A stretch of DNA of 64,000 nt from Synechococcus sp. ROS8604 (GCF_014279655.1 NZ_CP047946.1:930001-994000); one strand, 5' to 3'. Shown: positions 23,446 to 46,516, counted from the stretch's first letter. The notes: generated from the letters alone by a model not told the origin. Program-made: numbers and translations.

Positions 23446-23518
23446 GGGGCCATAGCTCAGCTGGTAGAGCACCTGCATGGCATGCAGGGGGTCAGCGGTT
23501 CGAATCCGCTTGGCTCCA
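23446..23518 (+). tRNA. tRNA-Ala (anticodon GGC)
   Basis: A 73-nt cloverleaf: acceptor GGGGCCA/TGGCTCC with one G-U pair, D-arm with AGCTCAGCTGGTAGAGC, anticodon stem CCTGC/GCAGG around loop ATGGCAT, T-loop GTTCGAATC, discriminator A. CCA is not encoded beyond the discriminator. From 23476 on, the gene is the left attachment site of a tandem island array. Confidence 0.95.
23476..23518 (+). repeat. att copy 1 (within tRNA-Ala)
   Basis: 43 bp from the anticodon loop to the discriminator base, identical to copies at 34023-34065 and 46474-46516. It is followed by TTGAG. Confidence 0.95.
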
Positions 23519-23548
23519 TTGAGATCTCACTCCCTGAGACTGGTGAGT

Positions 23549-23573
23549 GAGTCTGATTCTTAAGTCTGATTTC
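23549..23573 (+). repeat. Candidate integrase arm site, left end of element A
   Basis: Two direct copies of GTCTGATT at 23551 and 23564, 13 bases apart, inside a 25-bp segment that recurs with 23 of 25 matches at 33884-33908 near the other end of the element. Position and spacing suit arm-type binding of the element's integrase or excisionase. Confidence 0.6.
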
Positions 23574-23922
23574 AAGTGGGCAGGTTCCTTGTCTTTCCCA
23601 CCACATGTAGTGGCGAGATTGAAGCTTGCAGTTTCTTGCCGCAGCATGTAGTGTCACTTTAACGAAACTCGAATCATCTCGATTTAACGATTCGTCTGTG
23701 GGAGCACGATGATCACCCATCGCCGCAGGCTCTACAAGTCACTAGAGCAGCTGACGGTCTGCTAGTGCACCAGGTGAAACGGTTGGAGACGCCAGTGTCA
23801 CAGGATTTGGGAATGCTTACCCCCTGGACTTGATAAGCAGACGAGAAGAAACGGGAATAAGCAACCGGATCGTGGACAGATGGCCGGTAGCTGATTTCGT
23901 TTTTCGTTCTTTATTGACAACC

Positions 23923-24138
23923 ATGACTTCGTCTTGGAAGCGCACCCCTGATGCTGCTGAGCAGCTCGGCGTCTCAAGCGACACGCTTAAGCGCCGCCGC
24001 GATATCGCTGGTGGATTTTTAGAAAACGGACGCGATTACAACCTCGGTCCGAGCCGCAATTCATCGATCACCTGGAACGTTGAAAACGTACGTAGTGCAT
24101 TCAATCAGCGCGGTCTCCTTGCAAGAAAGGAGGGTTGA
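23923..24138 (+). CDS. Small helix-turn-helix protein, excisionase or regulator-like
   Basis: 71 residues from ATG 23923; the frame is open 31 codons further up but has no coding character there. The start TPDAAEQLGVSSDTLKRRR is a MerR/AlpA-like HTH, as in excisionases and element activators. A helical tail follows (WNVENVRSAFNQRG). It heads the replication operon of element A, so it may act as regulator, excisionase, or both. Confidence 0.7.
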   Translation: MTSSWKRTPDAAEQLGVSSDTLKRRRDIAGGFLENGRDYNLGPSRNSSITWNVENVRSAFNQRGLLARKEG

Positions 24139-24140
24139 TC

Positions 24141-24299
24141 GTGCAAAAAAAAGACCCCCGCTGCTCCTACAGCAAGAGCCCACAATTCGTTAGCTCCATT
24201 TTATTTGGAAATCCAGGTCGTTACCTAATGACCTGCCGTCAAGACGTCGAATTAGAGGCTCAAGTTTCTGCCGCCACCGCTCAAGAGGTGCGGTCATGA
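24141..24299 (+). CDS. Small element protein of unknown function
   Basis: 52 residues from GTG 24141, two bases after the HTH gene stop. It overlaps the next gene by 4 bases (ATGA), which supports real translation. It contains SKSPQFVSSILFGNPGRYLM and two cysteines. No family recognised. Confidence 0.55.
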   Translation: MQKKDPRCSYSKSPQFVSSILFGNPGRYLMTCRQDVELEAQVSAATAQEVRS

Positions 24300-24925
24300 G
24301 CACCTCCCTGATCGAAGAGAACCTTTCTGCTCCATTTAATCCAACTCAAAACGCGCCTTGGATCACCATCGCAGGAGCGAATCAAGGTCTGGACTGCTTT
24401 CAGAAGGTTCACGCTCTGATGGATTTACGACCCACCTACAGGGCTGTCATTGGCAGCGTGATGGTTTGGTGTCGTGATGATCTTCAACTATCGAAACCGT
24501 CGTATTGGATGAGGCCCTGGCCGATTCATTGTTGGTGCATTGATGACGAAGGGCGAATCGTTGATCCAGCTTTCCGCAATCTCCAATTCTGGGAAAAGGC
24601 TTCAAACGTTCGTTTGCCTGATGACCTGACCGCTGCGTCATTCCCGATGATCAAGGACTCAGATCGTCTATTGGTTGACGCTACTTATTTGGTTCATTCC
24701 TGGCCTCTCAACGAGACGCCTCAATGTCCAAAGGTGATTTACGCCCCAGGGGTTTTATGGCACTCACCGAATGAGACCAAAGCAAGTTTGAGCTTGTGGG
24801 AGCTCAAGTATTGGTCCAAGGCGGCAAGGACCACTACCGCTTATGGGGGAGTGGCTCTATGCCAACTCGTGTGGTTGCTTGATCAGGTCAATAAGGAACT
24901 AGAGCCTCGGGGGTTTGGAAATTGA
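24296..24925 (+). CDS. Element protein of unknown function with His...Asp motif
   Basis: 209 residues, no signal peptide. The central part has PIHCWCIDDEGRIVDPAF, where a His, an acidic turn and a Asp-Pro recall the second half of a papain- or transglutaminase-like site. An upstream Cys (MVWCRDD) could be the nucleophile, but this is speculation. It lies in the operon between the small element gene and the primase and is coupled to both by overlapping stops and starts, so it probably serves replication or host takeover. Confidence 0.65.
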   Translation: MSTSLIEENLSAPFNPTQNAPWITIAGANQGLDCFQKVHALMDLRPTYRAVIGSVMVWCRDDLQLSKPSYWMRPWPIHCWCIDDEGRIVDPAFRNLQFWEKASNVRLPDDLTAASFPMIKDSDRLLVDATYLVHSWPLNETPQCPKVIYAPGVLWHSPNETKASLSLWELKYWSKAARTTTAYGGVALCQLVWLLDQVNKELEPRGFGN

Positions 24926-25806
24926 GAACCCCAAAACCTCAACTCCTGCGCCTTCAGACCCTTATTTACCAGGGCTGTTGCCTTCTTCCGTGCGGCGCGA
25001 ATAAAAACCCACTGATTAAAGCTTGGCCCTCTTCGGATGGTTTTTCCCTGCAGCAAATTGCGGACCATCCAGGCGTGAAATCTGTTGGGTTACGTACCGG
25101 TACAGAAGACGGTCGGATCATTTCAGTTGACCTTGATGGCGAAACTGCCGTCGACAAGGTTGCCGAGCACGGTCTCAACCCCTTCACCGGAACTTTCATC
25201 GTTGGGCGACGTGGTGACACTTATCGGCTGAAGCTCCAGTTCCAGCTCACCCCTGAACAGGACGCGCAGATCGGTCCATTCCAAGGAAAGATTCATACCA
25301 AGGATCCAATCAATGGCGCGAAGGGTGAAGCCGTCGAGATCTTCTACAGCCGGCGTCGTCAGGTGATCATTGGCGGCCGTCATCCCAGTGGTGAGAATTA
25401 CATCTGGCTTGATGGTTGCGGTCCAGATGCACTGTCAGCGCCGGATGCGCAGTGGTGGGCATTTCTGAAGGAGTGCCACGCCAGCTCATTACAGCCATCG
25501 GCAGCGATCCGGAGGGGAGGCACTCCCTCTCGTAACGGCCGTTCCCGCAGGGCTAACCCGTGCCCGACTTGTGGCAGGCATGACGGCCCTGGCGGCTCAA
25601 ACCTCTGGTGCGAGTACAGCTCCAGCGGACTGTTGTTTTGCATGCCGGGCAGCACGTTTTCAGCGCCTGCTGGGCTCCGCGTTGGTGATGTTCATAACGG
25701 ATGGGCACTCAAAAAAATCACTCAAACAGCAGACGGTCCCGTTCATGTCTTTGGCAATCACGACCTAGATAAATTGAAGAGGCAGAACAATGCACAAGCT
25801 CGTTGA
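24922..25806 (+). CDS. Prim-Pol type DNA primase/polymerase
   Basis: 294 residues from a TTG overlapping the previous stop. The N-terminal two-thirds is a bifunctional primase/polymerase fold: PCGANKNPLIKAW, GLRTGTEDGRI, the metal-binding VDLDG (Asp70, Asp72), and EIFYSRRRQVIIGGRHPSG. Near residues 212-240 is a Cys-rich zinc-finger-like stretch (CPTCGRHD ... CEY ... CMPG), as in other element primases. It would prime replication of the element. It overlaps the helicase gene by 17 bases. Confidence 0.85.
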   Translation: MRTPKPQLLRLQTLIYQGCCLLPCGANKNPLIKAWPSSDGFSLQQIADHPGVKSVGLRTGTEDGRIISVDLDGETAVDKVAEHGLNPFTGTFIVGRRGDTYRLKLQFQLTPEQDAQIGPFQGKIHTKDPINGAKGEAVEIFYSRRRQVIIGGRHPSGENYIWLDGCGPDALSAPDAQWWAFLKECHASSLQPSAAIRRGGTPSRNGRSRRANPCPTCGRHDGPGGSNLWCEYSSSGLLFCMPGSTFSAPAGLRVGDVHNGWALKKITQTADGPVHVFGNHDLDKLKRQNNAQAR

Positions 25807-27061
25807 GAAGACCCCATCAGGTTGGTGGGTCGACGACTCAGGCTGGCACCGCACACCCTGCAACGCCGGAGATTTAGCTGCAATGATCCGCGGTGCTGCC
25901 TACAAGCTCCGCTTCAACGAACTGTCAATGGAGGTCCAGCTCGATGGTGTGCACGTCACCTCTGAATGGATGGAGACGGCTTACGTCGAGTTCCAGGAGC
26001 ACGGCTGGAAGGCAAAGAAAAACGACGCTTACGACGCGATCCTTCAGGTCGCGAAAAAGAGTCGCTTCCATCCGATCGAGCAGTACTTCAGGCGGATCGA
26101 GCAGGACAAATCCATCAAGCCGGTGGACCTGTCGACATGTGCGCAGGACTACTTCGGGGTGAGCGGTGAGTTGGCGAACGAAATGTTCTGCGCCTTTCTC
26201 AGAGGTGCCGTCTGGCGTGTTCTCAACCCTGGGTGTCAGTTCGATGCAGTCCTGACCCTTAAAGGTCCACAAGGCATTCGCAAAACCAGCGCACTAAGGG
26301 CCCTGGTGCCTGATCCGGAATGGTTCAGCTCCAGTAGCCATGACCAGCTCAAGGATCAAACCATCGCCCTTCACAGGGTGCTGATCACTGAGCTTGGTGA
26401 GCTTGAACATCACACCGGCAAGCGTTCAGCCGGTGCTCTGAAGAACCTGATCACTAACCCTCGTGATTTGCAGCGGGTGCCGTATGGACGGGCCTATGAA
26501 TTCATGCCCAGGCGGTCTGTCTTGGCCGCCAGCGTTAACGGTGATGACTTCCTTCGAGACACCACAGGGAATCGCCGCTTCTGGGTTGTGGACCTGCCTC
26601 AGCAACAGCATGTCGACGTGATTGACACTGATCACATCGCCCGTAATCGAGACCGCATTTGGAAGGCTGCAATCGCGCAATATCGCGATGGACTGAAGCC
26701 GATGCTCGGCGAAGCCCATCAAGGGCTTAGCGATAAGCGAAACGAGGGTTACTCGGTCGAAAATCCATTCACAACTGCTGTTGAGTTGCGCTGTCTTCAT
26801 GCCTTGAAAGCATCGAAAGGCTTTTCGCTATTGCTTGCGATTGAGCTGTCATTGGTCTGTGCATCAATCGAGAAAACCGACGATGGCGATCGTGTCGTTC
26901 AACGACCACCAACCACTCGCGATTTTCAGCTAATGGCTGAATGCCTCAAGGGCCTTGGCTTTGAACGTGAGCCAAACCCCACCGGTAAGGAGCGAACACG
27001 GAAATGGAGGTTCAATGGCACAGACAACACAGGGGTTAAGTCGAGGGTGTGTGTCAACTGA
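25790..27061 (+). CDS. VirE/VapE-type superfamily 3-like helicase
   Basis: 423 residues of the virulence-associated E family, usually found behind Prim-Pol primases in phage satellites and islands. Walker A is GPQGIRKT (159-166; the usual second Gly before Lys is Arg here), the Walker B-like strand is VLITELGELE (198-206), and GDDFLRDTTGNRRFW (251-265) carries the arginine finger. It should form a hexameric replicative helicase at the element origin. A 12-bp iteron-like array lies 173 bases downstream. Confidence 0.85.
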   Translation: MHKLVEKTPSGWWVDDSGWHRTPCNAGDLAAMIRGAAYKLRFNELSMEVQLDGVHVTSEWMETAYVEFQEHGWKAKKNDAYDAILQVAKKSRFHPIEQYFRRIEQDKSIKPVDLSTCAQDYFGVSGELANEMFCAFLRGAVWRVLNPGCQFDAVLTLKGPQGIRKTSALRALVPDPEWFSSSSHDQLKDQTIALHRVLITELGELEHHTGKRSAGALKNLITNPRDLQRVPYGRAYEFMPRRSVLAASVNGDDFLRDTTGNRRFWVVDLPQQQHVDVIDTDHIARNRDRIWKAAIAQYRDGLKPMLGEAHQGLSDKRNEGYSVENPFTTAVELRCLHALKASKGFSLLLAIELSLVCASIEKTDDGDRVVQRPPTTRDFQLMAECLKGLGFEREPNPTGKERTRKWRFNGTDNTGVKSRVCVN

Positions 27062-27234
27062 GAACCAAGGACAGCCCTAGGTTTTGCCATCCCTCAACAC
27101 ATACACACAGGGCTGTCTTCTAAATAAGAGAATTAGATAAAAGAGAAGCAATAGAAGTCTGGGAAAAAGTCTGTGCGTCTGTGTCAGCTCATCAACCGCG
27201 CAAGCTTTTGTTTTATCAGGATCGGACAAGGCCC

Positions 27235-27318
27235 AATGCGTTTTTCATTGCGTTTAAGAATGCGTCTAACGTGATGAATAACATTGCGTTTAAAAATGCG
27301 TTTTAGATTATGTTTTAG
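27235..27318 (+). repeat. Seven-unit 12-bp iteron-like array, candidate replication origin
   Basis: Units begin exactly every 12 bases at 27235, 27247, 27259, 27271, 27283, 27295 and 27307. Five contain TGCGTTT or TGCGTCT in the same phase, with consensus AWTGCGTTTWAG; the fourth and seventh are degenerate. The array sits in the gene-free, A+T-rich stretch right after the primase-helicase operon, where an element origin is expected. Confidence 0.75.
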
Positions 27319-27336
27319 GGAATCAGATTAAAGGGG

Positions 27337-27597
27337 TTGCGTAATAGCCAGAGGTGTGTTTACTGCCAGAACTACCGGCACAAAAGCAAAGGCGGCCCTA
27401 GGTGCCATTGGGGCTCAAGAATGCTGAAACGTCTGGTAGAAAAAGGCAGAAGCAGTCAAAGCAGGAAAAACCGGGTCTCACCAGGACAACAGAAATTACC
27501 CTTTGCATTTGATATCAGACTCAATCAAATACCAGACGAGTGGCATCAAGTTGCGGTGAGATTTAGAAAAGCCAATGGCATAAGAGATGGCGATTAA
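27337..27597 (+). pseudogene. 3' fragment of a REP-type (Y1) transposase gene
   Basis: About 86 codons closely match the C-terminal third of the intact transposase at 29034-29819: CQNYRHKSKGGPRCHWGS, RVSPGQQKLPFAF, RLNQIPDEWHQVAVRFR, ANGIRDGD. The HUH catalytic half is missing. It belongs to the left copy of a duplicated transposase-barrel block. Confidence 0.85.
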
Positions 27598-27807
27598 CGG
27601 CTATTGCTGTGGTGAATAAATTGAGGGGGGTAAGCGTATCATTAGAGATCTTGAATGCAGAGGTTGAGTTTGCCTTGCCTAAATACTTAAAGTGGAATTA
27701 ATTAATATAGAAATCATCGATGGAAGAAATGCTGGCACGATATAGGTGCCAGGTATCGTATGCCTCATTAGGGAAATTTAGGCGTGATTAGGCAGTGATT
27801 AAAGAAA

Positions 27808-27831
27808 TAAAAAGCCCCTGTGGTGGCAGGA
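27808..27831 (-). terminator. Terminator of barrel gene 1
   Basis: On the minus strand CCTG pairs with CAGG around CCACCA, followed by GGCTTTTT. A near copy serves barrel gene 2 at 29998-30023. Confidence 0.6.
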
Positions 27832-27895
27832 GGTTTTGGATGTTAAGGTCTAGGAACACATCTACACCCGCATTCGGTGGTTGTACAGGTATTGA

Positions 27896-28858
27896 TCAAT
27901 ACAGGTTTGTGAGGAATCCCTGTTCGCTCCTCCAGTGGGTTAAATCAGGTGAATCGTGCACCCTCACATCCCGGCTGCTTGGTGTTGATGTTAGGGCATT
28001 GATCACAGGGTGTTGTTGAACTTTTTTCCGTTGCGCTGTTGTAGCCGCACCACCAAATTGCACTTTAAGGTCTGCTGAAACTCTTGTCTCGAATGCCTCG
28101 TCGTAGGAGATATTCACTCCAGCTGTTAAACCACTGCTGATTTCATAAGCCAAGCGTCCGAATACGCCAGAACCATCTGCTGAACCAAGGTCACCTTGCT
28201 GGTAGTAATAGCCAACAGAAGCATTCAGCTCAGGAGTGATGAAATAACCAACATCAAGCCCGTAGGTGTTGAGTGAACCGCCTTGAAAAACGCTGTTGAG
28301 TTGAGCTTCTTTCTCACCAACCGGAACTAAGGCATAGGCATTGAAGTTCCAACTGTCTGAGACAGCTTCTGCATTCACAGCAACCTGCTGGAAGAAGACA
28401 CTGCTCTTGTCTGTGACGGATACCCCTGTATCGGCATCACCTGTAGCCATCGGACGGCTGTCATAACCAGCATTCAGCCCAAACATCCAGCTGCGGTCTC
28501 CATTCAGCCAGCGATAACCAAGCCTTGAGGAAGTGCTGATCGTGGTGCCAGCAACTTCTGTATTGATCAGGCTGCTGTCATTGCCGTAATCAGCGAAGTT
28601 GACATTCGCCAGTACATCAGCAAAGAACACACTGTTCTCGCCAACAGAGAGAGGCAAGAACCCACCAATACCTGCTTGATTCGGTGTTCCAGCTCCTTGC
28701 AATGCAACTTGAAACCCAATGGTGGGCTTGACAACACCCCTAAGGCTGATGCTCATCACACCAAGGTCATCAACACTGCCGTCCTCTTGCGCAATGGCGG
28801 GCAGAGAAGCAAGAGAGATGGCAGAAGCAAGCAGCCCCAGGGAGAGACGACGCAGCAT
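27896..28858 (-). CDS. Outer-membrane beta-barrel protein, copy 1
   Basis: 320 residues with a signal peptide (MLRRLSLGLLASAI, cut after AIAQ). The rest is made of alternating strands rich in Gly, Tyr, Asn and Ser (SSRLGYRWLNGDRSWMFGLN, ASVGYYYQQGDLG), a barrel resembling the inverse-autotransporter (intimin-type) beta domain. A short helical tail (NALTSTPSSRDVRVHD) follows, with no passenger domain. Copies 2 (30083) and 3 (35518) are close paralogues. It may be a porin or a surface receptor; that is inference. It is transcribed against the element's replication operon and has its own terminator. Confidence 0.75.
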   Translation of the reverse strand: MLRRLSLGLLASAISLASLPAIAQEDGSVDDLGVMSISLRGVVKPTIGFQVALQGAGTPNQAGIGGFLPLSVGENSVFFADVLANVNFADYGNDSSLINTEVAGTTISTSSRLGYRWLNGDRSWMFGLNAGYDSRPMATGDADTGVSVTDKSSVFFQQVAVNAEAVSDSWNFNAYALVPVGEKEAQLNSVFQGGSLNTYGLDVGYFITPELNASVGYYYQQGDLGSADGSGVFGRLAYEISSGLTAGVNISYDEAFETRVSADLKVQFGGAATTAQRKKVQQHPVINALTSTPSSRDVRVHDSPDLTHWRSEQGFLTNLY

Positions 28859-28952
28859 TAGGCGTTAATAGATGGCGTAACGATGCCTTGCTTGTGCTGC
28901 TGCTACACGCTGCAGTAGGCAGTTTCAGCTTTGCTGCTATTCAGTAAGCAAC

Positions 28953-28976
28953 AAAAACCCCGCTCGTGGCGGGGCT
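28953..28976 (-). terminator. Hairpin upstream of barrel gene 1
   Basis: Read on the minus strand, AGCCCCGC-CACGA-GCGGGGTTTTT. It lies about 95 bases before the barrel gene start and belongs to the leader block shared by all barrel copies. Its original upstream gene is gone here. Confidence 0.7.
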
Positions 28977-29033
28977 AATGAATATTCAGTCGGGAGATCG
29001 TTAGCGACAATTCACCATCTGGTTGTTGATTCA

Positions 29034-29819
29034 ATGGGTCGATCATCTCGTCGGCTTCCTCCAGGACATTCATTTCATATCACGCTTAGATGCAATAGCC
29101 GTCAGTTTCTGATTGCCAAAGGATTGAGAAGGGATGTGCTGCTTGCTGTGCTCACTAAAGCCAAGCAGAAGGTGCCTCATCGCTTATATGCGGTGTGTCT
29201 GATGGCTAATCACCTGCATTTGCTTCTGCGTCCTGATGATGCAAATGAATTGCCAAAGCTGATGCATTGGTTTGGCTGGTATTCAGCCATGGCACTAAAC
29301 CGCCTTTCTGGTCGTTGCGGGCATTTTTGGGAAGCCAGGTATTACGCCACTGCGATTGCTCCAAAAGATCACAGGCGAGTGCTGAATACGTTGCGGTATA
29401 TCCACGCCAATCCAAAGGCAGCAGGAATCAGAAAAGGGTTTTATGACCCCTATTCCAACTACGGGCATTACGGAAGATTGGCGTGTGATGGCATCAGTGA
29501 GTGGCACCCAAGCTTTCTGCAATTGGCATCAAGCCTGAAGGGATGCTCCAAGCGCTATGCACGCTTTTGCCAAAAGTATCGCCATCACGCCAAAGGAGCA
29601 GCCAAGTGCCACTGGGGCTCAAGCATGCTGAAGCGATTGGTTGAGACAAGAGGTGGTCGTAGAAGCAAGAGCAAGCGTGTCTCACCAGGGCAACAAAAAT
29701 TGCCGTTTGCCTTTGATGTGCGGCTCAATCAAATCCCAGCGGAGTGGCATCAAATTGCGGTGAGATTTAGAAGGGCAAATGGCATTCGTGATGGCGATCA
29801 AATACTCAAGCTTTGGTGA
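29034..29819 (+). CDS. REP-associated tyrosine (Y1/HUH) transposase
   Basis: 261 residues. The Y1 domain shows FHITLRC, the HUH motif in ANHLHLLLR (His60, His62) and the likely catalytic Tyr122 in LRYIHANPKAAGI. A basic C-terminal extension follows. Such TnpA_REP proteins are single-strand transposases related to IS200/IS605 and usually sit near palindromic repeats rather than inside a classic IS. A 3' fragment of a second copy lies at 27337-27597. Confidence 0.85.
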   Translation: MGRSSRRLPPGHSFHITLRCNSRQFLIAKGLRRDVLLAVLTKAKQKVPHRLYAVCLMANHLHLLLRPDDANELPKLMHWFGWYSAMALNRLSGRCGHFWEARYYATAIAPKDHRRVLNTLRYIHANPKAAGIRKGFYDPYSNYGHYGRLACDGISEWHPSFLQLASSLKGCSKRYARFCQKYRHHAKGAAKCHWGSSMLKRLVETRGGRRSKSKRVSPGQQKLPFAFDVRLNQIPAEWHQIAVRFRRANGIRDGDQILKLW

Positions 29820-29997
29820 TTAAGCTAGGGAATATAAATAGCTTTAGAGTAAATTAAGTCAAGGGTGGATTTGTTATGAATACGTAAAATTATTTCTGAT
29901 TAGTTCCTTCCAAATAAGCCATCAAGGCAACTTTCTACATTGCAATGGTGCCAGGTATTAAAGGCTGATTTACTGGTTTATGGGTGTGACTGAAGAA

Positions 29998-30023
29998 ATA
30001 AAAAGCCCCTGTGGTTGCAGGGA
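29998..30023 (-). terminator. Terminator of barrel gene 2
   Basis: On the minus strand CCCTG pairs with CAGGG around CAACCA, followed by GCTTTTT. It is homologous to the hairpin at 27808-27831. Confidence 0.65.
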
Positions 30024-30082
30024 CTTCTGGGGTTAGGTTGGTTGGGTTATGTGTCGGTTCATATAGTGATTTATTGTTTAGT

Positions 30083-31090
30083 TTACCCCATTTGGGTATT
30101 CACTCTCTGATCCATACACCCCATTCGCCTTAACTCTTCCCTCGTTGAATTCCATAATTGCCATTCGTCTGCGTTGCATGCATCTTCGTCGTGCACCCGC
30201 ACATCCCGATTGCTTGGCGTTGATGTTAGGGCTTCAACTGCAGCATTGGATTTCGGTGTTTCTTTCCCAGGACCACCATTGGTATTGAAGCGCCACTTGA
30301 TGTCAGCGGAGAAGCGTGACTTGAATGCACTGTCATAAGAGAGGTTGGTGCCAAGCGTTAGTCCGTTGTTGATGGAATAAGCGAGGCGACCCAAAACACC
30401 AGAGCCATCAGCCTCATTCATATCACCGTTTTGGTAGTAGTAACCAACAGATGCCCTTAGGGCTGGCGTCAGGTTGTAACCCGCATCCAAGCCAAAGGTA
30501 TCTAGTGCGCCGCCTTGATAGACGGTGTTGAGCTGTTGCTCGGTATCACCAGTCGGGATAAGTGCATAAGCATTGAATGCCCACTTGTCGCTTACTGCTT
30601 CTGCATTGACTGCAGCCTGCTGGAAGAAGACCGTGCTGCGGTTGGTCACAGGCACCCCCGTATCGGCATAGCCCGTTGCCATTGGTCGGGTGTCATAACC
30701 CGCATTCAGCCCATACATCCAACTGCGGTCACCATTGAGCCAGCGATAACCCAGCCGTGATGAGGTGCTGATCGTGGTGCCAGCAACAGTGGTGTTGATG
30801 ATGCTGCTGTCATTGCCGTAATCAGCGAAGTTGACGTTCGCCAGTACATCAGCAAAGAAGACGCTGTTGTCTCCAACAGAGAGAGGCAAGAACCCGCCAA
30901 TACCGGCTTGATTCGGTGTGCCTGCTCCCTGCAGTGCGCCTTGAAAACCAATAGTGGGTTTGACGACATCCTTCAGGCTGATGCTCATCACACCAAGGTC
31001 ATCAGCACTGCCGTCTTCTTGAGCAATGGCAGGAAGGGAAGCAACAGAGATGGCAGAAGCCAACAGCCCTAGGGAGAGACGACGCAGCAT
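30083..31090 (-). CDS. Outer-membrane beta-barrel protein, copy 2
   Basis: 335 residues, same architecture as copy 1: signal peptide ending AIAQ, barrel strands (SSRLGYRWLNGDRSWMYGLN, ASVGYYYQNGDMN) and a tail with the conserved RDVRVHD. Copies 1 and 2 agree strongly over the first two thirds and differ more near the C-terminus, which suggests recombination or selection on exposed parts. Its flanks, the transposase 3' end on one side and the leader with hairpin on the other, are duplicated too. Confidence 0.75.
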   Translation of the reverse strand: MLRRLSLGLLASAISVASLPAIAQEDGSADDLGVMSISLKDVVKPTIGFQGALQGAGTPNQAGIGGFLPLSVGDNSVFFADVLANVNFADYGNDSSIINTTVAGTTISTSSRLGYRWLNGDRSWMYGLNAGYDTRPMATGYADTGVPVTNRSTVFFQQAAVNAEAVSDKWAFNAYALIPTGDTEQQLNTVYQGGALDTFGLDAGYNLTPALRASVGYYYQNGDMNEADGSGVLGRLAYSINNGLTLGTNLSYDSAFKSRFSADIKWRFNTNGGPGKETPKSNAAVEALTSTPSNRDVRVHDEDACNADEWQLWNSTREELRRMGCMDQRVNTQMG

Positions 31091-31184
31091 GGAGCGTGAA
31101 TTAGATGCCGTAACGATGCCTTGCTTGTGCTGGTGATGTCCGCTGCAGTAGGCAGTTTCAGCTTTGCTGCTATTCAGTAGGCAA

Positions 31185-31212
31185 TAAAAAACTCCCGCTG
31201 TTAAGCGAGAGC
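31185..31212 (-). terminator. Terminator after the DUF4278 gene
   Basis: On the minus strand CTCTCGCT pairs with AGCGGGAG (one mismatch) around TAAC, followed by TTTTTT. It separates the DUF4278 gene from barrel gene 2. Confidence 0.75.
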
Positions 31213-31234
31213 TGATTGATGTGAAATCCTTGGT

Positions 31235-31342
31235 TTACTTGGCGTATGACACGCCGCGATAGGTCAATGGTGCCTTCTTGGTTGCATCAAAACCAACACC
31301 TTTGTGCTGGACATACTGCTTACCACGATAGGTGAGAGTCAT
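31235..31342 (-). CDS. DUF4278-type small protein
   Basis: 35 residues, starting MTLTYRGKQYVQHKG and ending LTYRGVSYAK. The two YRG repeats are the hallmark of the DUF4278 family found in cyanobacteria and cyanophages. Function unknown. It has a clear terminator 23 bases downstream. Confidence 0.8.
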   Translation of the reverse strand: MTLTYRGKQYVQHKGVGFDATKKAPLTYRGVSYAK

Positions 31343-31672
31343 TTGAGGTTCCTCAGAAATCCAGGTCCCCGTTCCGTGGCCTGGCGAGTCTGCGCCTCAC
31401 AGAAGTGAGGTGAACGTTCTTTGTAGTTGGTACTACTTTATTTTTATAGCAACAACGTCAACGTTTCTGTTGTTCGTGCTGTTACACAAGTGAATCCAAT
31501 CTTTCTATTGGCAGCATATCTATACAGAAACGAAAAAACCCCCAACAGTTAGGGCAGGGTTAGAAGGCTTTAGCGTTGGTTGCCAGAGCTTCATCAGCAG
31601 TGCCACGCTTGCGCTTATCAGGCAGCTTGGTCGAAATGATGTCGTCATACAACTAATCCAAGTCCTCACCCG
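31343..31672. other. Intergenic stretch with a small gene remnant
   Basis: About 330 bases. On the minus strand at 31577-31650, the phrase DDIISTKLPDKRKRGTADE ends at TAA, with a TAG just before it, so a small basic protein gene seems to have decayed. A C-run/G-run hairpin with a T run lies near 31533-31558. The rest holds presumed promoter sequence for the DUF4278 gene. Confidence 0.45.
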
Positions 31673-31927
31673 TTATGGGTACAACACCTCCATAATTTCC
31701 CAACGGGACTGCAGACTCACGCCTAGCTGCCAAGCCATCAGCCTGTCCCTTTCCTCTTCCACCAATAAGAACACCATCCAATCCGGCTCGACCTCACCAG
31801 CCACATCCCTTCCAAGCTGTTCAATACCGAGGGTTAACCAAGACTTGTAGCCATCAACGTCGTTAGCTCTCAGTGCCATCAGTAGCTCCTGCAGCAGAGC
31901 AAGCGTCATTTGAGTGTCGACGGTCAT
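31673..31927 (-). CDS. Small element protein of unknown function
   Basis: 84 residues from the ATG giving MTVDTQMTLALLQELL; the frame is open further up, but that part contains a terminator hairpin at 31967-31992, so the shorter start is right. It is helical, with LRANDVDGYKSWLTLGIEQLG and an acidic centre. No family recognised. Confidence 0.55.
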   Translation of the reverse strand: MTVDTQMTLALLQELLMALRANDVDGYKSWLTLGIEQLGRDVAGEVEPDWMVFLLVEEERDRLMAWQLGVSLQSRWEIMEVLYP

Positions 31928-31966
31928 TGCAGGTGGGTGACTGATTGGAGTATTCCCCGCTGCAAT

Positions 31967-31992
31967 CAAAAACCCCGTTCGTGGCGGGGCTT
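31967..31992 (-). terminator. Hairpin terminator on the minus strand
   Basis: AAGCCCCGCCACGAACGGGGTTTTTG read on the minus strand. It resembles the hairpin in the barrel leaders. Confidence 0.65.
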
Positions 31993-32166
31993 GGTTAATT
32001 CTTAGTTGGGGAAGTGATTTCAACATCTTCTATTGCAACACAAGGGTCCTTACTGGCTAATATTAAGTGAGTTGATTCGAGGCACGTTGCTTTTGCAGGC
32101 AATACGCGAAGGAATAGTTAGAAGATTGCACGTATTGCAGACTTTCCCCCACGTATAGGCTAGTTC

Positions 32167-32550: not shown

Positions 32551-32589
32551 GGCAGGGTGCTTACTGTGAAATATTTTCCAGAGTGTTAA

Positions 32590-37254: not shown

Positions 37255-37400
37255 TAAATGCCATGGAATGGCGATCCGGTAACAACAGCAACGAAATCAA
37301 TCAGGGGCCGGAGCCCGGAAGGGCGCTGATGTATAGCTATCAATCTCCCGACTGAATAGTCACTAGACCACTACGGTTGCGGGAAACTTAGACTCTTGCT

Positions 37401-37826
37401 ATGAAAGCAGTATTTGGCTTTTGGGCTTTGTCAAATCAACGTGTAGCACTTGCAATCCTTGGTGGCTTCATTCTCGCAGGGCAAGTACATGCGAAACCAA
37501 TGAACAAGAATTTGAATCTTATGTCAGTTAATAACGAGGCAGACATGAGAAGAGCCATTTGTATGGATGCTGGCGCAACTTCAAAACTTCTGATAGCAAA
37601 GATGACAGTAGTGAAGAATGTGAAAAGCGTAAAGTGTAAATCCGGTGAAGCTCTGATTAGATACAGAGAAGACGCCTCCGATCCAGGGCACGTGTTGGTT
37701 AATATCGACCCTCCTAATGGCAATAGCAAGGGTTTAGACTGTGACGGTAAAGCTGATATTGGGCTTCACTATATAGGCTTAAACTGTTTAGAGTCAAGTT
37801 TAGAGTCTACTTCGCATTCTAAATAG
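37401..37826 (+). CDS. Exported hypothetical protein
   Basis: 141 residues with a signal-peptide-like N-terminus (core near 15-30, likely cut after VHA). Four cysteines and a Lys-rich mature part. Low G+C compared with the core genome. A strong terminator follows. Function unknown. Confidence 0.65.
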   Translation: MKAVFGFWALSNQRVALAILGGFILAGQVHAKPMNKNLNLMSVNNEADMRRAICMDAGATSKLLIAKMTVVKNVKSVKCKSGEALIRYREDASDPGHVLVNIDPPNGNSKGLDCDGKADIGLHYIGLNCLESSLESTSHSK

Positions 37827-37862
37827 GCGATTAAAATATAATCATCTATATGTTTTGGTATT

Positions 37863-37887
37863 GCCCCGCTATCAGCGGGGTTTTTTT
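37863..37887 (+). terminator. Rho-independent terminator
   Basis: CCCCGCT-ATC-AGCGGGG followed by seven T, 37 bases after the upstream gene. Confidence 0.85.
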
Positions 37888-37892
37888 ATTGC

Positions 37893-38042
37893 ATGGTTGA
37901 CCCATCACTGCTGCATCAGTTACCCGTCAGCGGAGAGGGGCGGATTCGAGCTCACGGTGCCCTTGCGTCCCTGATTTATCTCGTTATTTTTGTCTCGTCG
38001 GAAGCGTTGCGTTTGGCGCACCACCGGCAGCACAACAATTAA
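37893..38042 (+). CDS. Small possible membrane protein
   Basis: 49 residues from ATG 37893. A hydrophobic middle (LASLIYLVIFVSS) could span the membrane. It starts right after a terminator and ends 8 bases before the next gene. Weak call without a family. Confidence 0.35.
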   Translation: MVDPSLLHQLPVSGEGRIRAHGALASLIYLVIFVSSEALRLAHHRQHNN

Positions 38043-38050
38043 AAAACAGC

Positions 38051-38542
38051 ATGACGACTCCCCTTAAAGCGCAGCGGTATCTCCTGCGTGATGGCAAGTT
38101 CATCACCGCTTCAATCCGACTTGATCCAGCTCACATCTACCGATACGCCTGCCAAAACGGTTTGGTGATCCTTGCTCTGCTCTCAGCTCAGGTCGAGAGG
38201 TTATTGCTTCGGTTGATCCAACAACAAGCAGAAGAATCCTCTGCGCTGAGGCAAGAACCAGCACAGCCAACCAAGGCGCCCCAGCTGAGCATGCGCCGGC
38301 TGACGCTGGGAATTGTTAGCCAGTCGACGCTTCTGGGGCTTGTGCTCGATCTAGCCCCAGATCAACCCAACTGGCACAACGGCTTGAGTCTCAGATTTTT
38401 GGACATGAGCCAAGGCCAAATTGGACAAGAATCGCCGCACCAATCTCACGCGATGAGACGGGCAAACACCACCGCGACAAGGCCAACTGGCACAGCAAGA
38501 GCCTGTGTCACTGTGGAGTCCGCAGTGGCGCTGGCGTCCTAA
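38051..38542 (+). CDS. Hypothetical protein
   Basis: 163 residues with a hydrophobic stretch near 38-48 and a Gln-rich middle. The C-terminal third is Ser/Thr/Arg-rich and may not be genuine. No family recognised. Its end overlaps a converging gene by 4 bases. Confidence 0.4.
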   Translation: MTTPLKAQRYLLRDGKFITASIRLDPAHIYRYACQNGLVILALLSAQVERLLLRLIQQQAEESSALRQEPAQPTKAPQLSMRRLTLGIVSQSTLLGLVLDLAPDQPNWHNGLSLRFLDMSQGQIGQESPHQSHAMRRANTTATRPTGTARACVTVESAVALAS

Positions 38543-38823
38543 GGGAAAAGGAATAGTTCTATTGGGCTTTTGAAGGTCCACCAAGGTGCGACAGAGTTGC
38601 CCTGATCTTTCAGACAACGCTTCATCGCTTGCTTCAATTTGGGCGATCCGCTGGGAAAGCTGTACCGGAAGTTCTCTTCGTCGCAGGTGTCCCTTGAAGT
38701 GGCAATAGCTCTAGCCACTGCAAGCTCACGCATGAGCTGTTTCCCACGGATGACGGCATAGGCGCCGTAACTAAAGGAAAAGCCTGTAGTGAGGATCACA
38801 GCACCGCAAGCACCGCGAACCAT
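38539..38823 (-). CDS. Hypothetical membrane-anchored or exported protein
   Basis: 94 residues. The N-terminal 25 residues are hydrophobic (signal or anchor), followed by a charged part with two Cys (DTCDEENFRYSFPSGSP, KRCLKDQG). The pattern suggests an exported small protein. No family recognised. Confidence 0.5.
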   Translation of the reverse strand: MVRGACGAVILTTGFSFSYGAYAVIRGKQLMRELAVARAIATSRDTCDEENFRYSFPSGSPKLKQAMKRCLKDQGNSVAPWWTFKSPIELFLFP

Positions 38824-38949
38824 CTATTTAGTGATGTTGTCCATGCCTCAAGGCTGACGCAGTCGCTGTCAACAAGCGCAGCCTGCACGCGCGCAGAGGC
38901 GGTTAAAAGCGGCATTTCGCCACGAGATATGGCGCACTATCGGCCACTC

Positions 38950-39399
38950 CTAGGGGGGGGAAGTCGCAATATGCGAGTGCTCTAGGGGGGGTAGGCGCTT
39001 GAGATAGGACGCAAGCCCCAAATCCTTTCCTGCTTTTAGGAGCCGCGCACGGCGCCTCAGGCTGTTGCGTTCTTTCTTGGCTTGAATCTCCACGCAACGT
39101 TCAAAACACACCATTGCTTTCGAGTGCGACAGATGCTTTTGAGGGTTTCGCTTCGGCTTGCGTTTGGCGTCTTTCGGTGGCTTGCTGCTGATCTGAACCG
39201 CTGGGAGCTGGCTTCTGCTCAGGCTGAAACCGTTCTCTTTTGCGACCGCCCAAAAACTCGCTGCGTTGCGGGTGGTGGTGCTGGCCAGTACCTGCCGCGC
39301 AGCATGTGGTGTCGGCCAGCGGTTCCCGAGGAGGTTTAGGGCTTCAGCGTCTGGATTGGCCGCGCCTGCCTCCCTTAGCGCCGCTGAACACCCGCACAA
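38950..39399 (-). CDS. Basic hypothetical protein
   Basis: 149 residues, strongly basic. Residues about 20-55 (ALNLLGNRWPTPHAARQVL) look folded, and the C-terminal half is Lys/Arg-rich (KRKPKRNPQKH, NSLRRRARLL), which suggests nucleic-acid binding. Overlapping plus-strand frames look less protein-like. No family recognised. Confidence 0.45.
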   Translation of the reverse strand: MCGCSAALREAGAANPDAEALNLLGNRWPTPHAARQVLASTTTRNAASFWAVAKENGFSLSRSQLPAVQISSKPPKDAKRKPKRNPQKHLSHSKAMVCFERCVEIQAKKERNSLRRRARLLKAGKDLGLASYLKRLPPLEHSHIATSPP

Positions 39400-39448
39400 T
39401 GCGTTTCTGTCACTTTCATAGGTTCCTTGCCCTCCTGTCCTGCTTGGG

Positions 39449-39937
39449 ATGTATCGGGCTGCATCGCGGATCTCTTCAATCGTGCGGGGCGCGTGGCATG
39501 GATGCCTATTGGATGCCTATGGCACCAACTACTTGTCGCCTGTTCCGCAAAGGGATGCCGTTGAAGTCGGCAAAATCCTCCGGCGCTTGGGGTATGTCAA
39601 AGACAAACATCAGCTCCGTAAGAACGGCAAAAAGCTCAAACGCATGTGGCGTCGTGTTGACGCCTCAAGTGCCTCAACGGTTAGCCAACCACCTGAGGCG
39701 GGGCAAACCCCAACAGGCGGAAGCGAAGACAGCAATTCGCCTCATGTCTCTAGTTCTTTGATTGAAAGCGAACAGATACAAGAGGAGGAGCAGATCATCG
39801 CTACCGCGTTGTTGGGGAAAACACCTGAGGCACCTGAGGCGCTGTCCGTGGGCAGCAGCTTTGACGTGCCTAATCACAGACATAGGGGGTTGATCAACAA
39901 TGACGAAAGAGCCGATAGTTGGGACGCTTGGGACTGA
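39449..39937 (+). pseudogene. C-terminal fragment of a replication helicase/primase (possible)
   Basis: The first 70 codons include VEVGKILRRLGYVKDKHQ and KLKRMWRR, the form of the winged-helix C-terminus of VirE/D5-type element helicases. A low-complexity Glu/Ser-rich tail follows. No ATPase motifs are found upstream, so the gene is probably truncated. It may be the relic of element B's replication module. Confidence 0.45.
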
Positions 39938-42225: not shown

Positions 42226-43803
42226 TTAAACTCTCAGCTCCATCCGACCAGCAAAAGACTTTAGAGATTGATCTATCTCATGGGCGCTACGAATGCCGGC
42301 ATATACGTAATGGTCAGGACGCACCAAGACACCAATGCATCCTGATTCCTGAAGCCAAGACTTTAGGACTCCAAAGGACTCAGTGACCTCCCAAATGAAC
42401 CCATCTCCCTCAGAAACTGGGGCATGAGCATCCCGCATTAAGACAATCGCAACTCCGATGGCCCTAGCCGTAAGACTAATGAGTTCGATTTGCTCTTGAT
42501 TGATGGCGTCTGCCAGGAGAATGATTCGAAAACAAGGCTCCATCAAATCGTCCATAAGAACTTTGCTTTTGCAAGAGTTCGAAACCAGAGGCTGGGGAAG
42601 AACGGTGCCGGCCAGGGGGGAAGTCCCTTCGATAAAACCATCTTCCAAGGGTGCAATCAGATTTTCACGCAAGGTTACCTTTGTATGACCACCATTCTCC
42701 GCGAGAATTTGGTCATCTCTCTGTCTTGCCTTATCCGGATCAAGCTCAGTGATAATAAGTCCACACTCAATCGTAATTTTGGTTGTGCTCACTACATTTG
42801 GGCGCCTCTCTTGGACATAAGTATTGAGGAGGTCTGGGGTGGCTGAACCTGATAGGACACTGTTCAGTTTCCAAGCGAGATTGCCGGCATCTCTCAATCC
42901 CTGGCACATTCCTTGGCCAAGGAATGGAGGAGTTTGATGTGCACTATCACCTGCCAAAAACACGCGCGAATCTTGCCACTGTTCTGCCACAAGCGCATGA
43001 AAGCGATAAGAAGCAGCACGCCATATTTCGGCTTGACCCGGCTTGAGCCAAGGTGCCATCAACTCCCATAAATAATCATCAGAGAGAGCATCTTCGAGAT
43101 TGTCACCTGGGATTACCATAAACTCCCAGCGCCGATGATTGCCCGGACAACAGATCATGGTGCATGGCCTATTTGGATTGCAATATTGCACATTTACCTG
43201 CGGCAGCGCGTCAATAAATTCATCACCTACAATCATATCTACTACGATCCACGGCTCATTGTAATTGAGATTTTCGACGCCACAGTCCATTTGATGCCGG
43301 ATCGGGCTAGATGCGCCATCGCAGCCAATCAAATAGCGCGCATCGTAATCAAAAAATTTATCGTCGGGAGCCTTTGCTTTAATCGTTACACTCGTTGCGG
43401 ACTGTTGGTAATCTAAAAAATCATTGCCCAGCAGAACATTGATCGTAGGCATTAGCTCATTAGCGTCCCTGAGCACCGTCTCGAGATACGGCTGATCACA
43501 CGTGTAGTGAGGACTCCAAGTCAGTGGATAGGGCTCGGGAATGTGCTCAAGCCTTTGAATAACCCGACCGCTGGCATCAATATAAATTTCATCGCGAAAG
43601 GACTCAACATACGGAACTAAATCCTTGGTAATACCGATGCGCTGAAATAATCGCATGGCATCATGGTCAAACCCCACAGCCCTTGGCTTAGGATAAATAC
43701 CGGTAGATTTTTCGAAGACAACAACACTCAAGCCTAGCTTTCCAAGCAATCCAGCTAAAGTGGCACCAACTGGACCATAGCCGACAATGGCAACGTCATA
43801 CAT
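42226..43803 (-). CDS. FAD-dependent aromatic hydroxylase, MhpA-like
   Basis: 525 residues from the ATG giving MYDVAIVGYGPVG; a start 7 codons earlier is less likely. It has the Rossmann GxGxxG (residues 8-13), the DG motif in YLIGCDGASSP, and the GD motif in VFLAGDSAHQTPPFLGQGM, all hallmarks of class A flavoprotein monooxygenases. The nearest type is 3-(3-hydroxyphenyl)propionate hydroxylase MhpA, which adds a hydroxyl to a phenolic ring using NAD(P)H and O2. No ring-cleavage partner is seen nearby, so the substrate is open. Unusual cargo for a marine cyanobacterium and likely acquired from a heterotroph. Confidence 0.8.
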   Translation of the reverse strand: MYDVAIVGYGPVGATLAGLLGKLGLSVVVFEKSTGIYPKPRAVGFDHDAMRLFQRIGITKDLVPYVESFRDEIYIDASGRVIQRLEHIPEPYPLTWSPHYTCDQPYLETVLRDANELMPTINVLLGNDFLDYQQSATSVTIKAKAPDDKFFDYDARYLIGCDGASSPIRHQMDCGVENLNYNEPWIVVDMIVGDEFIDALPQVNVQYCNPNRPCTMICCPGNHRRWEFMVIPGDNLEDALSDDYLWELMAPWLKPGQAEIWRAASYRFHALVAEQWQDSRVFLAGDSAHQTPPFLGQGMCQGLRDAGNLAWKLNSVLSGSATPDLLNTYVQERRPNVVSTTKITIECGLIITELDPDKARQRDDQILAENGGHTKVTLRENLIAPLEDGFIEGTSPLAGTVLPQPLVSNSCKSKVLMDDLMEPCFRIILLADAINQEQIELISLTARAIGVAIVLMRDAHAPVSEGDGFIWEVTESFGVLKSWLQESGCIGVLVRPDHYVYAGIRSAHEIDQSLKSFAGRMELRV

Positions 43804-43824
43804 CTTGGGCTTTCTGAATAACAA

Positions 43825-44374
43825 GAATACTAGCAGGAGTTAACCGAAAAGAATTTACCCTGATCGGCCTCATGGATTGGTGGTGAATTGCCAGTTTTAA
43901 AGCATTTGCCGGCGATATTCGGGGTCGATTACATTATCCACGATGACAGGTGCTAGGCATAGGCAACCACGATCTCCCATCCCGACGCCCAAACGCGAGT
44001 GCACAAAGAACTTCCAGTAATTGGTGTATGTACAACGTGGCGCACAGCCCGTTTTCCTTTCACATTTGGGATTCTCTAATTGGGTCCATCGCGGTCTCCA
44101 GGCCTCCGTTTGTATTCAGAGAAAGGTTGGCTCGAGGCGCCAACAAATCGCACGTGACTCGGAACAACGAGGTCGGCGTGCGCTGATTGACGGCAGAATT
44201 GATACACGACGTCCGGTATTGGACTTGCAGGTGGTCGAAAACTCCGGGAAACATACCCCCACTGCGGCAGCCTTTTGCCAAATCCGACGCGGTGATTTTT
44301 CTTATGCGATTCCCCGTCGACTCCAGTTGCCCGTCAAATCTCTCGCTCTGTAATGAGCTCATCTTGACGATCTA
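43825..44374. other. Gene-free or decayed stretch upstream of the hydroxylase
   Basis: About 550 bases. Short minus-strand frames such as NYWKFFVHSRLGVGMGDRG look protein-like but have no proper start and are broken by stops and shifts. I think a former gene next to the hydroxylase has decayed, but I cannot identify it. Confidence 0.35.
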
Positions 44375-45025
44375 TCATTGACCTTTTATCTCAGTAATCG
44401 TCGAGACGCGGTTCTTAATAGGTTCACGTATGACGTCATCAGCGTGTGTCATTTCTTCATCAAATTTAAAGTCAAGGAGCTCCTCCGCCTTTGCACGCTC
44501 ACCAAGATCTCTGGCGCCCTTGTTTTTCTTGCCCTTGTGAATGAGCGCGCCCGTAATTATCTTTGAAATTTCCCTAAGGTGATCAATTTTTTCCTGGTAT
44601 TTTGACTCGTCCAGTTTTTCTAGACTAATGAATGGCTCGGTCTTGTCATCTGCGGTAACTGCTGCCCAGCTTACGTAAAATAGATTGCTTTCCTTGATGG
44701 TGTCAAGCAGGGAAAGATATAGATAGTCTTCAAACCTCTGCTGAAAATACCCAACTCTATATTTTGACTGCTTGGCGCGTATTTGCCGTACTTTGTCTGG
44801 TGTATATTTCCCAACTCTTTTTGTGCATCCTTCGTTTCCTTCTCTGAATTTTGAGTGAGCAAAATGCGGTGCTCTTTTTTCTCCTCTTTTTAAAAACACA
44901 TTAGCCCTGCATTCAGAGCACACGATCAAGTTTTTGCCGATCAACCATCCATCATCTCCATTCATCTGCAGGAATTCCTCCACGCTCATTGTTTCGAGCT
45001 TTACGAGAGAAAATGCATAGTCCAT
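44375..45025 (-). CDS. CoiA-like zinc-ribbon protein, possible nuclease or defence gene
   Basis: 216 residues. The N-terminal part VCSECRANVFLKRGEKR followed by PHFAH is the zinc-ribbon/HFAH signature of the competence protein CoiA family. A conserved GCTKR stretch and a helical middle (YFQQRFEDYLYLSLLD) come next, then a charged tail (KGKKNKGARDLGERAKAEE). The nuclease core of CoiA is not obvious. A+T-rich, beside the integrase, so probable element cargo. Confidence 0.6.
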   Translation of the reverse strand: MDYAFSLVKLETMSVEEFLQMNGDDGWLIGKNLIVCSECRANVFLKRGEKRAPHFAHSKFREGNEGCTKRVGKYTPDKVRQIRAKQSKYRVGYFQQRFEDYLYLSLLDTIKESNLFYVSWAAVTADDKTEPFISLEKLDESKYQEKIDHLREISKIITGALIHKGKKNKGARDLGERAKAEELLDFKFDEEMTHADDVIREPIKNRVSTITEIKGQ

Positions 45026-45061
45026 CTGTTGATTTTCCTACGACGTGCTGGTCGGCCACGT

Positions 45062-46297
45062 TTACGCTTCGATCAGTGTGCCAACCGCACGCAGAACTGA
45101 CTCTTTTACATCTTCATCTGTAGTCCACTGTCCGTAGTGTTTCGTATGCGTTCTTAGGTCATGTCCCATCAGCGCAGCAAGGTCGCGCATCGGTACAGCT
45201 TTGTCGTAATAACTAGCGCCCCGCCACGCGTATCCATGCCTGAGCCCATAAGGCTTCAGTCCTGGAGTTGATGCCACCAGGTTCTGCCAGTAGGGATGTC
45301 GATCCAGGTATTGCCGGAAGGTATCGCCACAAGCCTTCAGCCCTTTGGCATTCGTGATGGTGATTGGAAGCTTCACCAGTCCAGAGTCGTATAAATCAAG
45401 AATACGTTTGCCTTCCCCGGGAAGGTCTTTCAAATCCAACGGAAGCACTAAACGTGGAGGCTTTGGGTTACGGGCTGTCTTGCTGTTGCGTTTTACGTTC
45501 CCAACTTTGAGTTGGCCTTCATCAATGGACAGCATCATCAGCTCTGCCGGACGCAAGCCATAAAGGCCAACCAAAGCAACCGCCAACCTCAGCTGAGGCT
45601 TTTCAGCCAAAGAATTCAGCAAACTTAAGAGTTGCTCAGGCTTGATGGGAACGGTTGCTTTTGAGGCGGTTTCTCGCTGGCCAACAAACAAATCGGCGTC
45701 TTCACCAATGGGTGGCAACCACTGTTGTGGGGCACCGCATCGCTTGACGGCAAAGGTTAAAAAGCGGGCAACGTCAAGAAGATTCCGCTTACGGCCAGAG
45801 CCACCAGGAGCAACATTCGCCAGGTGTTGAAAGGCATAGGCACGGAATAGTGACGCACCATCGTGAGGGGCCTTCTTAGGCAAGGCCAAGAGCTTTAAAA
45901 CACGATTGACGCGGTAGCGCTCGTTGGAGTCGTAGTTGTCCTGGGTGACGTCACCGCTCACGACAACACGCAGCTGTTCATATCGTTTTGCGATGTCTTC
46001 CCAATCCGGTTGCCCCGGCGCTGAGTCAGGCGTGTGGGAAATCAGCTTGTAGGCATCACCAAGAGATAGTCCTAGAGACTCCATACGTTTTCTGACCTCA
46101 CTCAGCAGTGCGGTGAGCTTGGTCTGGCTTGAAGGGGCCCAGCTCAAGTGGGTTGTGACTGCCTGTCGTCGTTGACCTGGTGGAGCAAAACAAAGCTTGA
46201 TCCGACCTGACTGCTCTTCAATCAGCCAACCTTTTCCGTGCTCCCTGCGAAGCAGGTTTCGAACGTCGGTAATCCAGGTGGTTTTTGGCATGAACAC
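45062..46297 (-). CDS. Tyrosine integrase of element B
   Basis: 411 residues, same family as the element A integrase: Arg in GLYGLRPAELM, RHGYAWRGASYY, GHDLRTH and Tyr in HYGQW. The conserved stretch NVKRN and TFRQYLDR are shared with A. Its start lies 177 bases from att copy 3. The intervening DNA has different short repeats from element A's arm sites, so the two integrases may be specific to their own ends while using the same core. Confidence 0.9.
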   Translation of the reverse strand: MFMPKTTWITDVRNLLRREHGKGWLIEEQSGRIKLCFAPPGQRRQAVTTHLSWAPSSQTKLTALLSEVRKRMESLGLSLGDAYKLISHTPDSAPGQPDWEDIAKRYEQLRVVVSGDVTQDNYDSNERYRVNRVLKLLALPKKAPHDGASLFRAYAFQHLANVAPGGSGRKRNLLDVARFLTFAVKRCGAPQQWLPPIGEDADLFVGQRETASKATVPIKPEQLLSLLNSLAEKPQLRLAVALVGLYGLRPAELMMLSIDEGQLKVGNVKRNSKTARNPKPPRLVLPLDLKDLPGEGKRILDLYDSGLVKLPITITNAKGLKACGDTFRQYLDRHPYWQNLVASTPGLKPYGLRHGYAWRGASYYDKAVPMRDLAALMGHDLRTHTKHYGQWTTDEDVKESVLRAVGTLIEA

Positions 46298-46473
46298 CTG
46301 CTTGTTGTGCAGGGCGTCATCGACTTCCCCCTATCTTAGGGGAAAAACTAGGGGGAATCTGTTGCAAGCAGTCATGACTGGTTAGAAGCGTGAGACTGAC
46401 TTACCCTTGAAAACCTTTTGCAACAGCTAGTTTAGTCAGTAATCGCAGGGCTTCTCGTCTTGAAGCTCGCTTG

Positions 46474-46516
46474 CATGGCATGCAGGGGGTCAGCGGTTCG
46501 AATCCGCTTGGCTCCA
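46474..46516 (+). repeat. att copy 3, right end of the tandem array
   Basis: 43 bp identical to the tRNA-Ala 3' end; also shares the preceding TG with copy 1 and the following CT with copy 2. Core chromosomal genes resume after it. Confidence 0.95.

Follow-up and report, generated by a model that had tools for sequence, protein, structure and literature searches.

A layered array of integrative elements at a tRNA-Ala gene of Synechococcus sp. ROS8604 and the repeat pairs that probably address its integrases

The genome of Synechococcus sp. ROS8604 (GCF_014279655.1) is a complete single contig of 2,876,904 bp, and the window analysed here, a stretch of 64,000 nucleotides (NZ_CP047946.1:930001-994000) in whose positions coordinates are given unless stated otherwise, carries an intact tRNA-Ala(GGC) gene in a lexA-tRNA-Ala arrangement that is conserved genus-wide. 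Its last 43 bases are present in three identical copies, starting at 23476, 34023 and 46474 as reported in a preliminary description of this DNA, and a search of the whole genome with up to three mismatches revealed exactly these three, none being expected by chance. Copies 1 and 3 share a stretch of 45 bp and the other two pairs 43 bp, with different flanks at all three, so that the duplication is confined to the tRNA part. The segments bounded by these attachment site (att) copies measure 10,547 bp (element A) and 12,451 bp ('B'), and each contains a large tyrosine integrase at its right copy, reading inward. These integrases, IntA and IntB, are 49% identical, and the presence of an own, related integrase beside each right repeat, as described previously, was thus confirmed. 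It is very likely that elements have entered this region repeatedly and site-specifically, each time at the anticodon arm of one tRNA-Ala(GGC), to form a layered array.

Element A is complete as an integrative element and comprises an integrase, matching pairs of short repeats at its ends, a candidate excisionase, a Prim-Pol primase/polymerase, a VapE-like helicase and cargo genes (Table 1). The pair adjoining IntA occurs at exactly two locations in the genome, which are the two ends of A, and the 3' part of the tRNA has been duplicated as att with restoration of an intact tRNA. When genes of a tycheposon-style lifecycle were looked at, both Prim-Pol and the VapE-like helicase were found in A; the primase-helicase module that had been noted for the array is present in A (Prim-Pol 8e-8, VapE-like 1.3e-55), but reduced in 'B' to a C-terminal helicase remnant. 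In the related genome G011, a single A-like element of 9.4 kb with a second att copy occupies the same tRNA-Ala, its integrase and helicase being 78% and 54% identical to those of A. The initial view of two integrative elements holds for A, with this relative standing alone at the same tRNA, but not for 'B', which does not appear to be one coherent element. As judged from its ends, A should be excised by IntA, and the expected circle would join 34065 to 23519 and not, as first proposed, to 23476, since 23476-23518 is the retained tRNA part.

An uninterrupted tRNA-Ala locus joined to the sequence after 46516, which the preliminary description had suggested seeking among relatives, was indeed found in G030. 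In this exact empty site, the tRNA-Ala is immediately followed by the sequence that starts at 46517 in the window, and an artificial join of 23518 to 46517 gave 94% over 2,710 bp against G030. As the stretch of low guanine-plus-cytosine (GC) content after 46516 directly follows tRNA-Ala in G030, it is old chromosome and not island; a third island in this low-GC flank (46.5-58 kb) was considered and rejected, as G030 is collinear with this flank and so is G007 from about 48.4 kb on. A second stretch of lowered GC (0.42-0.51) lies on the left side of the window at 7000-13000. In another relative, G019, sequence like the left end of 'B' is located directly beside tRNA-Ala (85% over 290 bp).

Segment 'B' (34066-46516) is, with high probability, not one element but the left end of a lost element, designated X, with which the right part of a B-type element has become fused, because the left end of 'B' carries the repeat pair of a third integrase class, its right end carries that of IntB and the helicase is truncated at the junction. 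The left-end pair, GATGCGCAAAA/GATGCACAAAA, matches that of the G006/L014 integrase class at 20 of 22 positions and that of IntB at 11 of 22, which is background. In whole-genome searches the X pair was found once, at the left end of 'B', and the IntB pair once, at its right end; an integrase of the X class (G006/L014) is absent here. Matching repeats at both ends are hence a feature of A and not of 'B'. The B-type relative L073 has the order att, helix-turn-helix (HTH) gene, Prim-Pol, VapE helicase, small recombinase, small genes, integrase and att, of which the window keeps just the right half, with homology to L073 beginning at 39,552. Leftward, homology to the cargo of another element of the same genome, located at tRNA-Arg, stops at 39,496. 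Since the helicase is truncated and the homologies end and start at these positions, the fusion point falls within 56 bp (39,496-39,552), and what the B-type element has lost is its own left end, the primase and the greater part of the helicase. The identity of the three att copies, and the intact integrase open reading frame (ORF) that each segment contains with its catalytic residues conserved, would also be compatible with A and B as two coherent elements, excisable singly or together, B being merely older; this is unlikely, since the ends of 'B' carry different, genome-unique pairs as compared to matching pairs in five control elements, and since 'B' is devoid of a primase and most of a helicase.

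Table 1. Features of the array and its surroundings (window positions; REP, repetitive extragenic palindrome)
Feature	Position	Strand	Basis
Intact tRNA-Ala(GGC), integration target and left attachment site	23446..23518	+	Rfam; ARAGORN 23445-23519
att copy 1 (43 bp, from the anticodon loop through CCA)	23476..23518	+	last 43 bases of tRNA-Ala(GGC)
Element A, its right end being att copy 2	23519..34065		att bounds; IntA repeat pair found at these two ends and nowhere else
Left arm-type pair of A (probable), AGTCTGATT twice, 13 bp apart	23550..23571	+	repeat comparison
Small HTH-like protein, conserved close to the ends in most relatives	23830..24138	+	weak HTH matches
209-aa protein of unknown family	24296..24925	+	
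Prim-Pol primase/polymerase	24922..25806	+	Pfam PF09250 8.1e-8
VapE-like / phage helicase	25790..27061	+	PF05272 1.3e-55; phrog_1313 2.3e-56
Cargo: secreted, probably outer-membrane protein, paralogue 1	27896..28858	-	no Pfam match
REP-associated / IS200-like transposase	29034..29819	+	PF01797 2.3e-13; NF047646 7.5e-18, below its cut-off
Cargo: paralogue 2 of the secreted protein family	30083..31090	-	
HTH_17 protein, candidate excisionase, convergent with IntA	32167..32550	+	phrog_66 excisionase 7.7e-4; HTH_17 2.8e-5
IntA tyrosine integrase, 423 aa	32590..33861	-	
Right arm-type pair of A (probable), AGTCTGATT twice, 13 bp apart	33885..33906	+	repeat comparison
att copy 2, A right / X left	34023..34065	+	identical 43-bp copy
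Left part of 'B': cargo and, probably, the left end of lost element X	34066..39496		X-class pair; homology to G019 left end and own tRNA-Arg element
Orphan left arm-type pair of X (probable), TGATGCGCAAAA TGATGCACAAAA, 12 bp apart	34153..34176	+	unique in genome; G006/L014 integrase pair 20/22
Cargo: secreted protein paralogue 3, frameshifted inside its signal peptide	35612..36514	+	
B-type helicase remnant, last 112 residues, 78% identical to L073	39449..39937	+	
Fusion-point interval, X-side versus B-type DNA	39496..39552		
Second tyrosine recombinase, small (219 aa), also conserved in B-type relative L073	40198..40857	-	PF00589 2e-23
Cargo: MhpA-like FAD monooxygenase	42226..43824	-	PF01494 9.3e-55; NF004829 above cut-off
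Cargo: protein with CoiA_N domain	44375..45025	-	PF25164 3.8e-9
IntB tyrosine integrase, 411 aa	45062..46297	-	
Orphan right arm-type pair of IntB (probable), TAGGGGAA / TAGGGGGA, 12 bp apart	46337..46356	+	unique in genome; both ends in L073
att copy 3, where the array ends on the right	46474..46516	+	identical 43-bp copy
Conserved chromosomal flank	46517..64000		directly after tRNA-Ala in G030

IntA and IntB belong to an integrase family with relatives in Synechococcus, Cyanobium, Aphanothece and Prochlorococcus single cells, and none were found in IMG/VR viral contigs and phage records. R258, K278, R364, H390 and Y399 are invariant in 19 family sequences, as is the replacement of the HxxR histidine by tyrosine (Y361-x-x-R364). 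An AlphaFold model of IntA (predicted local distance difference test score, pLDDT, 84) contains an N-terminal three-stranded sheet and helix and finds its best match in full-length lambda integrase, at a sequence identity of about 14%. The 3' part of tRNA-Ala lies about 150-310 bp upstream in most family integrases with enough upstream sequence. A third member in the same genome, at genome position 2,070,884, adjoins a fragment of tRNA-Arg(TCT), whose intact gene lies 19.6 kb off; this tRNA-Arg(TCT) element of 19.6 kb (genome 2,070,618-2,090,288; L108, L109) has matching end pairs and the same cargo paralogues. Further stacked sites include L073, where a B-type element is followed by another with an A-type helicase, and L072, where a 7.4-kb unit containing fragments of integrases comes after an A-type integrase. 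In L087 (Synechococcus AG-670-A05, 909-3772) two family integrases diverge from one att, each with its own pair. The Prochlorococcus locus L099 (AG-402-G10; 9768-9841 and 13907-13951) presents a mirror layout, with the 5' half of tRNA-Ala duplicated on the host side and the full tRNA-Ala at the recombinase end. The sequence common to the 3'-type copies and this 5'-type copy is the anticodon arm around ATGGCATGCAG, which is taken as the putative shared core.

Direct repeat pairs were scored in 26 non-redundant family members by the criterion of at least 9 of 10 matches within 180 bp upstream of the integrase. Between the integrase start and att, a pair spaced by 12 bp was present in 19 of the 26 and by 13 bp in 4 of the 26, with a mean of 0.08 after shuffling; other spacings are rare, and the motif varies by class. 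The same pair is found at both ends of A, of the G011 element, of L073, of the tRNA-Arg element in this genome and of G006, where the two ends are about 35 kb from each other. When integrase-side pairs were compared with left ends over 22 positions, that of IntA scored 21 with the left ends of both A and G011, that of IntB 19 with L073, that of IntG006 21 with G006 and that of IntArg 21 with the tRNA-Arg element, the usual background being 10-13; this comparison leaves out the integrase side of L073 (a 107-bp slice without repeats), whose pair was seen in a separate repeat listing.

Similarity of the motif follows that of the N-terminal domain. IntA and IntB are 30% identical in this domain and 62% elsewhere, and IntB and its L073 relative, which share the repeat motif, are 81% identical in it and 62-65% elsewhere. 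Across the family, motif similarity tracks N-domain similarity with a partial correlation of 0.59 given the catalytic domain (permutation p 0.0005), and the converse partial correlation with the catalytic domain, allowing for the N-domain, is 0.06. Because the motif follows the N-domain, the pairs occur at both ends and the layout of the IntA model is of the lambda type, the repeat pairs are probably arm-type integrase binding sites. Somewhat less securely, but still on balance favoured, the N-domain and the tandem pair with a period of about 12 bp may constitute a readable one-to-one address code within this family, with a shared core and private arm pairs. Several points weigh against this reading of the array: visual inspection of the pairs supplied the motifs for the correlation; some family members of other classes score 15-18 of 22 against related left ends, making the code imperfectly private in the TGCGC-type group; the two-ended B-type reference is one single-cell contig (L073); and the role of the pairs as arm sites is one that we infer from sequence.

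Under the proposed address code, the catalytic part would, in the manner of lambda integrase, act on the core that the elements have in common in the anticodon arm of the tRNA, while the N-terminal domain would bind the private direct-repeat pair, 12-13 bp apart, at each end, and co-resident elements could use a common insertion site with no recognition of each other's ends. The prediction is that only A excises cleanly and that IntA and IntB are not interchangeable. Segment 34066-46516 should be stuck, because IntB is without a left partner and X without an integrase, and would presumably be immobile except via homologous recombination or low-level arm-independent events. The preliminary description had envisaged excision of A, B or A+B and mobilisation of one element by the integrase of the other; excision of A is retained, in view of its matching pairs, but that of B or A+B is not expected from the mismatched ends of 'B', and for the same reason neither is cross-mobilisation. 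Some tyrosine recombinases are known to recombine at a low level in the absence of arm sites, and together with the identical 43-bp att copies this would allow IntA to act in trans on the whole array, with infrequent movement of A, B and A+B alike; such activity is improbable, however, given the absence of the IntA pair from the ends of 'B' and the mere 30% identity of the two N-domains. That the repeats are tRNA pseudogenes arisen by segmental duplication or homologous exchange and not by integrases can practically be dismissed, since, although cargo paralogues common to A, 'B' and other islands attest that homologous exchange does act here, the 43-bp tRNA part is the only sequence common to the three copies, the empty site in G030 is perfectly joined and most of the family integrases whose upstream sequence is available have the 3' part of tRNA-Ala there.

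With 'B' read as a fusion, its history probably began with insertion of X and a B-type element at tRNA-Ala, after which a deletion would have taken the X integrase, the att between the two elements and the left half of the B-type element, and A would have been inserted at tRNA-Ala. Late arrival of A beside the tRNA, also suggested in the preliminary description, is favoured because of the decay of 'B' and the position of the X-like left end in G019, but falls short of proof, as the same structure would result whether A entered at the tRNA copy or the X-B unit entered at the right copy of A.

Cargo paralogues are common to A and 'B' and to different islands. The secreted, probably outer-membrane family without Pfam match has many copies in several islands, namely paralogues 1 to 3 of Table 1 and others at about 0.81, 1.03, 1.71, 2.08 and 2.42-2.44 Mb of the genome; a 179-bp stretch at the 5' end of its genes has 35 genome matches, and the 1.71 and 2.08 Mb islands have in common a 4.6-kb block with 98.5% identity. 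Relatives of the REP-associated-type transposase accompany this family in other islands, and a fragment at 27364-27619 is 75% identical to the transposase at 29034-29819. Upstream of cargo in A, a glutamine-II riboswitch (31360-31419, minus strand) scores above the Rfam gathering score. The frameshift of the 'B' paralogue, at about 35520-35612 in a CTG-rich stretch, could reflect decay or phase variation. The 219-aa recombinase (40198-40857) has little outside its catalytic domain and is also present in some other genomes of the genus. A search for defence genes gave weak DruB-like matches, to the CoiA-domain cargo protein only.

Islands at tRNA genes hold much of the variable gene content in marine picocyanobacteria, and their still-mobile pieces are usually hard to tell. 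If the repeat-pair code is true, element ends, the owner integrase and mobility would be predictable from sequence alone, each end of a decayed island could be assigned to its owner, stacked islands could be separated into live, fused and dead parts, and several elements could stack at one tRNA without mobilising each other; the code also predicts which circles should and should not form.

Stacking at tRNA genes is itself a known process, and element stacking with decayed neighbours is well described for integrative and conjugative elements (ICEs) and integrative and mobilizable elements (IMEs) (PMC5704250). The tandem accretion of these and of cis-mobilizable elements (CIMEs), for example in ICESt1-related arrays (PMC5704250), resembles the present array in successive site-specific insertion at one tRNA, in a decayed neighbour that retains att sites and in composite ends; unlike in those arrays, the decayed unit here appears to be a two-element fusion that still encodes an integrase. 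The Pfam, NCBIfam and PHROG matches of the ORFs scanned in A and 'B' included no relaxase or conjugation gene, nor, as looked for in phage satellites, any terminase or capsid gene, small unknown genes remaining. Prochlorococcus tycheposons (Hackl et al. 2023; cited in PMC10187409 and PMC10872708), the obvious counterpart among picocyanobacteria, to which A is not assigned here, are similar in their picocyanobacterial host, tRNA insertion, diverged tyrosine recombinase and cargo, and the present integrase family is found with Prim-Pol and VapE at tRNA-Ala in Prochlorococcus single cells (L085). A picocyanobacterial tRNA-Phe/tRNA-Cys integrase found by a protein language model belongs to a family described as distinct from tycheposon integrases (PMC10187409); it shares with the present family marine picocyanobacterial hosts, tRNA-linked islands and a diverged tyrosine integrase, but its targets are tRNA-Phe and tRNA-Cys as compared to tRNA-Ala and tRNA-Arg here. 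A parallel in layout is offered by lambda-type integrases (PDB 1z1b; IntS of ICEMlSym, PMC11963761), with an N-terminal arm-binding-like domain, here a predicted fold, and a core with flanking direct repeats at both ends; unlike in these, the repeats here are mostly a tandem pair with a 12-bp period and a class-specific motif, and the histidine of HxxR is replaced by tyrosine.

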